64,000 nt of DNA from Carallia brachiata. Taxonomy: Eukaryota > Streptophyta > Magnoliopsida > Malpighiales > Rhizophoraceae. Position numbers and translations under genes: made by a program. This document shows positions 59,566-60,171 of this stretch, piece by piece. Each line of letters opens with the position of its first letter. Position 1 is the stretch's first letter. The notes under the pieces are model-generated. The model did not search any database and was not told the DNA's origin. It worked only from the letters and a program-made list of their open reading frames with translations. The stretch lies in the NCBI GenBank assembly GCA_021464245.1, contig JADCRB010000037.1:4046056-4110055 (forward strand), in the 5' to 3' direction.

Positions 59566-60171
59566 CTAGCGGGGCCCAAGGCGCAGCTCCAAGTCAAGCT
59601 CGACCTCGTCTGGTGGGCCGATGATGTTGACGTCGCTTTCCGGCTGGTTGATGCTGCCGGAATATTCTGAAAGAGAGGCAAAATTTCGCCGGAATGACTC
59701 CTTTCTGCTAGAAAAATTCCTCCTAGACTTAAGTATCTAGGAGGGATGAACCCTTGGCTGACTCCGTAAGACCACCAGGACCAGCATGCATTCTCCCATG
59801 GGCTACGACTTTGATGAACATACCGTGGAGAGACCATTGCAGTGGAAGAACTCGGACCTGCTTCATTTGAGGGCGAAGCTGTACCAGTGGGATTTACTAT
59901 CGGAACGACAGACTGTTCTTTGGAAGAAGCAGTTCTCAGTGCTGGTTTCTTCTGCTTTCCGATTCTGGAACCAATAAAACACATTTTTTCCTTCGATTGC
60001 CCCGAGCGGGCGCAATCGTGAGACAAGTTGGTAAATTTGAGATGCACTAGGAATAATACCTCCATTGTTGTGGAAGACTTCCTCCAAAATTTGCAGTTGT
60101 GCCATGGTCGGTTGCCACCTTGTGCGGGGACTTTCTTCTCCCTTGTCTTGAGGTTCTGCAACTGGTTCCAT
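59566..60171 (-). pseudogene. WUSCHEL-type (WOX) homeobox sequence inside the retrotransposon
   Basis: On the minus strand an ATG at 60171 opens a 102-codon frame (to 59863). Residues 16-75 are a WOX homeodomain: TRWQPTMAQLQILEEVF (helix 1), IIPSASQIYQLVSRL (helix 2), the WUS-family turn LGAIEGKNVFYWFQNRKA (helix 3). The invariant W, F, N and R of helix 3 are present. The frame then becomes unlike WOX (EETSTENC). In the next frame a Ser/Pro-rich stretch leads to ILPLF at 59684-59670, like a WUS-box. In a further frame, LDLELRLG (59598-59575) followed by a stop at 59566 resembles an EAR repressor motif. Thus a roughly 200-codon WUS-like coding sequence is inferred with about two single-base frame breaks. 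No intron interrupts the homeodomain. It lies downstream of pol and upstream of the candidate 3' LTR, same strand. Whether it is expressed is unknown. Confidence 0.75.

Follow-up and report, generated by a model that had tools for sequence, protein, structure and literature searches.

A captured WUSCHEL-type gene in the genome of the rhizophoraceous plant Carallia brachiata is, with near certainty, encoded by a retrotransposon and present in many copies. By its domain order, the carrier is a Tat-type LTR retrotransposon, and the sequence of its cargo identifies it as an intronless and divergent WUSCHEL-type gene. The starting point is a single element copy in a stretch of 64,000 nucleotides of contig JADCRB010000037.1, here called the window, whose coordinates are used throughout. 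This copy is decayed.

The carrying element and its copy of the gene

The window element spans 57841-68072 in window numbering, with its 5' end lying beyond the window, and is flanked at both ends by a TCAGA target duplication. The features read from it are listed below.

57841..58642, minus strand: 3' LTR (TGTAA...TTACA), from the LTR pair alignment, with TCAGA outside
58643..58656, minus strand: polypurine tract adjoining the 3' LTR, from the sequence; the same G-run motif occurs in 20 of 20 copies
59470..59543, no strand given: tandem repeat of a 22-base unit, present three times, shortly after the WUSCHEL-type stop
59566..60171, minus strand: captured WUSCHEL-type gene, ATG to stop with two frame changes; intact relatives elsewhere in the genome
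59578..59598, minus strand: EAR-like motif LDLELRL near the C-terminus, from three-frame reading
59670..59687, minus strand: WUS-box-like EILPLF in the second frame, from three-frame reading; TLPLFPE in many intact copies
59929..60126, minus strand: homeodomain of about 66 codons, from Pfam and PDB sequence matches
60260..60291, minus strand: promoter-like block with two TATAAA (60286-60291 and within 60260-60267) and GGCCCA between them
60650..61177, minus strand: integrase C-terminal part, a weak Tf2-1-like SH3 match
61312..61596, minus strand: integrase core piece (rve), a weak match (E 0.01) in a decayed copy
61712..62482, minus strand: archaeal-type RNase H (RVT_3), a mark of Tat elements (E 2.4e-25)
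62590..62952, minus strand: RNase H of the reverse transcriptase, Pfam match
62979..63512, minus strand: reverse transcriptase, Pfam match

An earlier note on this DNA had assigned the carrier to the Tat lineage of gypsy elements, and the second RNase H bears this out: RVT_3 sits between the reverse transcriptase RNase H and the integrase pieces. Paired LTRs and a 5-bp target duplication, features of the Tat type, are present in both elements checked, the window copy and a second element, L024, in which rve and H2C2 are also clear.

The 5' partner of the 3' LTR is found beyond the window, where continued numbering places it at 67297-68072; the pair differs by 45 mismatches over 802 columns (Jukes-Cantor 0.0585). 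At a rate of 1.3e-8 substitutions per site and year, the insertion would be about 2 million years old. L024, roughly 10.5 kb long and bordered by a GTAAA duplication, has an LTR pair that over 871 aligned columns shows 2 mismatches and 8 gap openings; these LTRs are nearly identical, and the family has therefore moved very recently. The reverse transcriptase and RNase H region of this young element (1-3002) is split over several frames, and its integrase and WOX readings are open; either it was mobilized in trans or the splits are assembly indels. The LTR pair of a third element, L074, aligns partially (14 mismatches in 624 columns) and was left out of the dating.

The WUSCHEL-type gene lies on the element strand between the integrase and the 3' LTR, with reverse transcriptase, RNase H, RVT_3 and integrase pieces upstream on that strand, which is the placement that the earlier note had described. 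Its minus-strand span is exactly that from ATG to stop. The WOX homeodomain that the same note had seen starting from a proper ATG is confirmed by the 102-aa first frame, which matches the Pfam Homeodomain (E 1.3e-11) and has WUSCHEL as its best PDB chain by sequence (E 3.2e-19). A first frame change falls at about 59955, near the end of the homeodomain. Past that point, three-frame reading recovers a WUS-box-like GEILPLFQ in the second frame and, back in the first frame at the 3' end, an EAR-like LDLELRLGPR followed by the stop. Because of its two frame changes, the window copy is unable to encode the whole protein.

Three further features of the window were recorded. A strong inverted repeat lies inside the 3' LTR at 58557-58629 (35-nt arms, 80%, 3-nt loop, GGCCGGCGTTGCCAATT...). 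Next to the element, 56674-57134 holds an inverted repeat with 186-nt arms (79%, 89 nt between them), possibly a MITE-like insertion. On the plus strand, 31607-33192 contains exon-like frames that indicate an ordinary host gene; they include FGDSVVDVGNNN, which we take to be a GDSL-lipase-like motif.

Copies across the genome and constraint on the gene

The genome searched comprises 337.5 Mb in 164 contigs. With the homeodomain frame of the window as query, all 150 copies scored out of 2402 first-look candidates match. In each of 20 such WOX-recruited copies the end of the integrase precedes the gene and a common region comes after it, and 19 of them continue into an LTR match with unchanged orientation. 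Unlike these 19, L028 has a mainly inverted LTR match at the polypurine tract (about 5073-5504, element-oriented); its 3' end is rearranged or nested.

Since this set had been picked through the homeobox, 28 further copies were taken through the integrase alone. The integrase query gave 2197 first-look candidates, of which the best 150 were scored, all with at least 94% identity, and the 28 stretches were chosen without regard to WOX. Every one of them has WUSCHEL-type sequence downstream of the integrase; in L076 it lies some 400 bases further away and runs past the stretch examined. No WOX-less family of the element was found among the best 150 of the 2197 integrase candidates (at least 94% identity). 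The gene is uninterrupted from the ATG through the EAR motif, at about 205 aa, in 10 of the 28 copies and broken in 18.

Of 1360 candidates for a kiwifruit WUSCHEL query, 136 places were scored: 9 are host-type WOX exons, and the other 127 score lower. Each of the 23 places of this lower group that were read (L039-L061) is an element copy. An open frame of at least 203 aa is present in 90 of the 124 lower-scoring places examined, one of these 90 having a stop inside the match. In both elements checked for their ends, the window copy and L024, the LTR pairs with 5-bp duplications enclose the WUSCHEL-type gene. The possibility, raised in the earlier note, that copies share a homeobox kept between pol and LTR is thus realized throughout the integrase-recruited and WOX-recruited sets and in the two elements with checked ends, and the gene is not a one-off insertion.

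One open frame from reverse transcriptase to integrase was found in none of 19 judgeable copies, all WOX-recruited; L009 is open in all three readings over this region, which is taken as an assembly gap. Better preservation of WOX than of pol was considered and dropped as evidence, since intact WOX in 10 of 28 copies, set against integrase-bearing frames of at least 900 aa in 7 of 150, is within equal decay per codon.

Selection was first counted in 20 distinct full frames, drawn from 23 full frames among 51 copies read; pN/pS was 0.089 for the homeodomain, with values of 0.73 for the linker and 0.45 for the C-terminal part. These copies had been recruited by homeodomain similarity, which biases the count, and it was therefore repeated on the integrase-recruited copies, with expected N fractions based on the spectrum of substitutions in the non-coding sequence downstream. 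Across all 28 copies the homeodomain shows 38 N to 28 S variants (expected N fraction 0.722, P 0.0075), the linker 75:29 (P 0.26) and the C-terminal part 27:14 (P 0.49). Taken alone, the 18 broken copies give 37:26 in the homeodomain (P 0.015). In the 10 intact copies the homeodomain ratio is 19:24 (omega 0.31, P 1.3e-4), next to 35:14 in the linker (P 0.34) and 11:4 in the C-terminal part (P 0.78). Restricting the count to intact copies introduces a mild bias that does not touch the full set of 28, and all these P values are approximate, because variants were counted once per kind and shared ancestry was ignored.

Constraint on the homeodomain is weaker in the integrase-recruited than in the homeodomain-recruited sample, yet it is present. 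The linker and C-terminal part of the 28 copies are indistinguishable from neutral, though the WUS-box and EAR motifs are kept. The dN/dS-type comparison among copies, which the earlier note had proposed, points to a homeodomain that is very probably under purifying selection.

At least one TATAAA stands upstream of the ATG in all 48 copies (20 WOX-recruited and 28 integrase-recruited). Two are present in 43, at about -119 and -95, and GGCCCA directly precedes the second in 41. Variation here is low, with the segments from -150 and -120 ranking 12th and 7th lowest among 58 segments of the region in 20 copies. The occurrence of TATAAA in every copy suggests that the gene probably has its own, internal promoter.

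The encoded protein, its origin and its two types

Intact copies encode a protein of about 203-209 aa that consists of a homeodomain, a variable linker, a WUS-box (spelt ETLPLFPE in many intact copies) and the ending LDLELxLGPR. Its nearest proteins are WUSCHELs, with a best E of 3.3e-18 among 419 matches from a 5.8-billion-protein database. Among the best 120 of these 419 matches, identity to known proteins is at most 53% and the element-like form is absent. No relatives were found in plasmids, and five pattern matches in viral contigs gave none that could be confirmed.

The host has two WUS genes, in which the match is spread over three exons; the element-borne gene has no introns. The homeodomains of both host genes (L030 and L031; G000 C90 and C65) contain YYNTGLRSP, an uncommon spelling that they share with Erythroxylum P0194, and the nearest sequence to the second host WUS is the WUS of Erythroxylum novogranatense (64%). 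In the homeodomain tree, the element sequences form a long branch outside all others. Topology tests reject neither a clade of the element with WUS (p-AU 0.411) nor one of the element with the two host WUS genes alone (p-AU 0.127).

Structure prediction yields a confident three-helix homeodomain (pLDDT blocks 93-96) and a remainder of low confidence. The best structural match of the predicted homeodomain is the WUSCHEL homeodomain with TGAA DNA, 6ryd (TM 0.93 by target length, 54% identity), and the extra residue specific to WUS among WOX homeodomains is present. The WUSCHEL residues described as contacting DNA bases, R38, Q89, N90 and R94 (PMC7203112), are kept in 28/28, 28/28, 28/28 and 25/26 integrase-recruited copies, respectively. 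The same copies keep I66 (28/28), LPLF (24/26) and the EAR motif (27/27). F101, which belongs to the dimer interface in WUSCHEL, is lost.

Compared with host WUSCHEL as characterized in PMC7203112, the element-borne protein has the same WUS-specific homeodomain length, the same base-contact residues and the same order of WUS-box and EAR. It differs in being encoded without introns by a large mobile family, in its length of about 205 aa, in a homeodomain that is only about half identical, and in the loss of F101. Helix 3 continues as RRSRKK or RRHRET in the element-borne protein and as HKARER in host WUSCHEL.

Identity over codons 36-75 divides the integrase-recruited copies into type A (18 of 28) and type B (10 of 28, L074 among the type B elements); type A has NVFYWFQNRRSRKK where type B has NVYFWFQNRRHRET. 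The pair L075/L074 differs by 2 N and 5 S changes in codons 1-35, and by 22.5 N and 12.5 S changes over 132 N and 39 S sites in codons 36-92. Positive selection between the types was considered and rejected: N and S are both raised, and recombination or old divergence therefore fits as well. The contact residues are identical in types A and B; the DNA specificity of the two types may differ.

Possible roles of the element-borne protein and comparison with known systems

Plants have no early-set-aside germ line; their germ cells descend from stem cells of the shoot. Among the 54 TE families reported to be raised in these stem cells at the vegetative stage, LTR families are well represented, with 26 (PMC7560203). 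A possible scheme is that the element, likely expressing the captured gene from its internal promoter, produces a protein that would enter the nucleus and bind DNA as a repressor. Corepressors would be recruited through the WUS-box and EAR, as suggested by the roles of these motifs in WUSCHEL, and the repressor would shift the host stem-cell programme to states that favor the inheritance of new copies.

For this reading as a whole, an internally promoted, captured WUSCHEL-type gene acting as a DNA-binding repressor that pushes the stem-cell programme toward copy inheritance, we consider the chances even. It is favored by the presence of the gene in 28/28 copies, the 10/28 intact frames, the LTR pairs with 5-bp duplications, the closeness to WUSCHEL in sequence and predicted structure, the kept contact residues, WUS-box and EAR, the constrained homeodomain, TATAAA in 48/48 copies and the share of LTR families among those raised in shoot stem cells. 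Against it stand the neutral-looking linker and C-terminal part, where the repression motifs reside, the 18/28 broken copies and the loss of F101. Action of the protein on meristem genes is, by a small measure, the less probable side of an almost balanced question. Still more tentatively, the WUSCHEL of the element might hold active cells in, or return them to, a stem-cell state and so gain access to the germ line, with types A and B evolving different DNA preferences. The least certain part is that the benefit would come by this meristem and germ-line route rather than by control of the element's own transcription. The earlier note had envisaged an element-encoded developmental transcription factor; coding capacity and constraint uphold the first part of that phrase, the gene in the window copy is itself broken, and a developmental function is so far a suggestion from sequence.

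The U3 region at the start of the 3' LTR is highly variable among L009-L028, and one U3 type has a palindromic TGAATTCA cluster. This cluster bears on the account in which the protein is an accessory regulator that binds the LTR or other copies and tunes their transcription, in the manner of retroviral accessory factors. WUS is described as preferring TGAA repeats (PMC7203112), and the cluster, found in 6 of 20 copies with 3-4 sites per LTR, was equaled in none of 200 shuffles. The other 14 of 20 LTRs lack it, however; the direct repeat TGAATGAA is confined to 2 of 20, as single sites and in copies other than those bearing the cluster, and U3 varies widely among copies that all have the gene. 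Family-wide self-regulation through LTR TGAA repeats was not adopted on these counts, and an accessory regulator in general appears unlikely.

WUS has a reported role against viruses. A protein that occupied the same sites with weaker dimerization could compete with host WUSCHEL and dampen its output, this antiviral role included. Kept base-contact residues with a lost F101, and a constrained homeodomain with a neutral-looking C-terminal part, are what such a competitor might be expected to look like; a pure competitor would have no need of the WUS-box and EAR, which are kept in 24/26 and 27/27 copies, and we regard the idea as improbable.

Slightly less probable again is a passenger gene, captured once before the family expanded and of no benefit, with a selection signal that is old or a sampling artefact. 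The broken state of 18 of 28 integrase-recruited copies, the neutral appearance of two of the three regions, and shared variants that mix old and new changes are all compatible with it. It has to contend with homeodomain constraint in copies that were not recruited by the homeodomain, both in all 28 (P 0.0075) and in the broken ones alone (37:26, P 0.015), and with intact frames that persist in types A and B and in the very young L024. Separate insertion of a WUSCHEL retrogene into the window element alone, which the lack of introns and a plus-strand T run at about 59357-59371 downstream of the stop, first taken as a possible poly(A) tail, could have indicated, is ruled out to all practical purposes by the arrangement common to 28/28 integrase-recruited and 20/20 WOX-recruited copies.

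The preferred reading, a captured gene that would act as a repressor on the stem-cell programme, concerns a type of cargo for which no printed account was found in the open-access literature, supplements aside, in line with the earlier note, to which no described element carrying a WOX gene was known. The accessory gene of Grande, reportedly treated by Gomez-Orte et al. in 2013, is said to encode a nuclear protein from its own promoter in the 3' internal region. It resembles the gene described here in that location and, by prediction, in nuclear action and a promoter of its own, and differs in being antisense and in not encoding a homeodomain protein.

Captured genes and stable extra domains are already known in plant Gypsy elements from the accounts of AlkB (PMC9289625) and TRP28 (PMC11963269), and it is the WUSCHEL cargo that appears to be new. 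Orchid Ty3/Gypsy elements with an AlkB m6A-demethylase ORF likewise belong to the Tat family, have a dual RNase H and carry a host-type gene stably in many copies. They encode an RNA demethylase and include 25-kb giants in Phalaenopsis, whereas the cargo here is of transcription-factor type (PMC9289625). The same study screened 121 angiosperm genomes and reports 15 extra domains, B3 and LONELY GUY-type among them (PMC9289625); a homeodomain is not among the domains named in the section on this screen, and "homeo" and "WUS" are absent from its main text and from the review PMC7264820, as far as these texts were available.

Retand elements with TRP28 likewise have a conserved extra ORF between pol and the 3' LTR, tandem repeats and predicted DNA binding (PMC11963269). 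The TRP28 ORF is antisense and without a host homologue, whereas the ORF here is sense and a WUSCHEL, and the region between pol and the 3' LTR measures about 2.0 kb in the window copy versus 2.9-6.6 kb in the Retand survey. According to its author, sense ORFs of this region encode no known domain (PMC11963269). Antisense TRP28 (PF04195) was sought in L024 (2993-5077), where six of the seven antisense frames of at least 60 aa gave no Pfam match at E 0.01. Transduced genes of the maize Bs1 type are, as reviewed in PMC7264820, likewise captures of host genes in sense orientation; they occur in one or a few copies, whereas here every copy examined carries the gene and its homeodomain is constrained.

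Citrus Gypsy elements are described as carrying a LONELY GUY-type domain (PMC9289625), a type associated with cytokinin activation. Together with the WUSCHEL described here, two parts of the meristem pathway would then have been captured independently. WUSCHEL-type frames scattered genome-wide are a source from which new regulators can arise, and they can mislead the annotation of WOX genes. If the more tentative reading, in which cells are held in or returned to a stem-cell state, is true, no mobile element known before this one would encode a transcription factor of meristem identity. An element coding for the factor behind maintenance of the shoot stem-cell niche would allow a direct test of the idea that mobile DNA steers development to secure its own inheritance.
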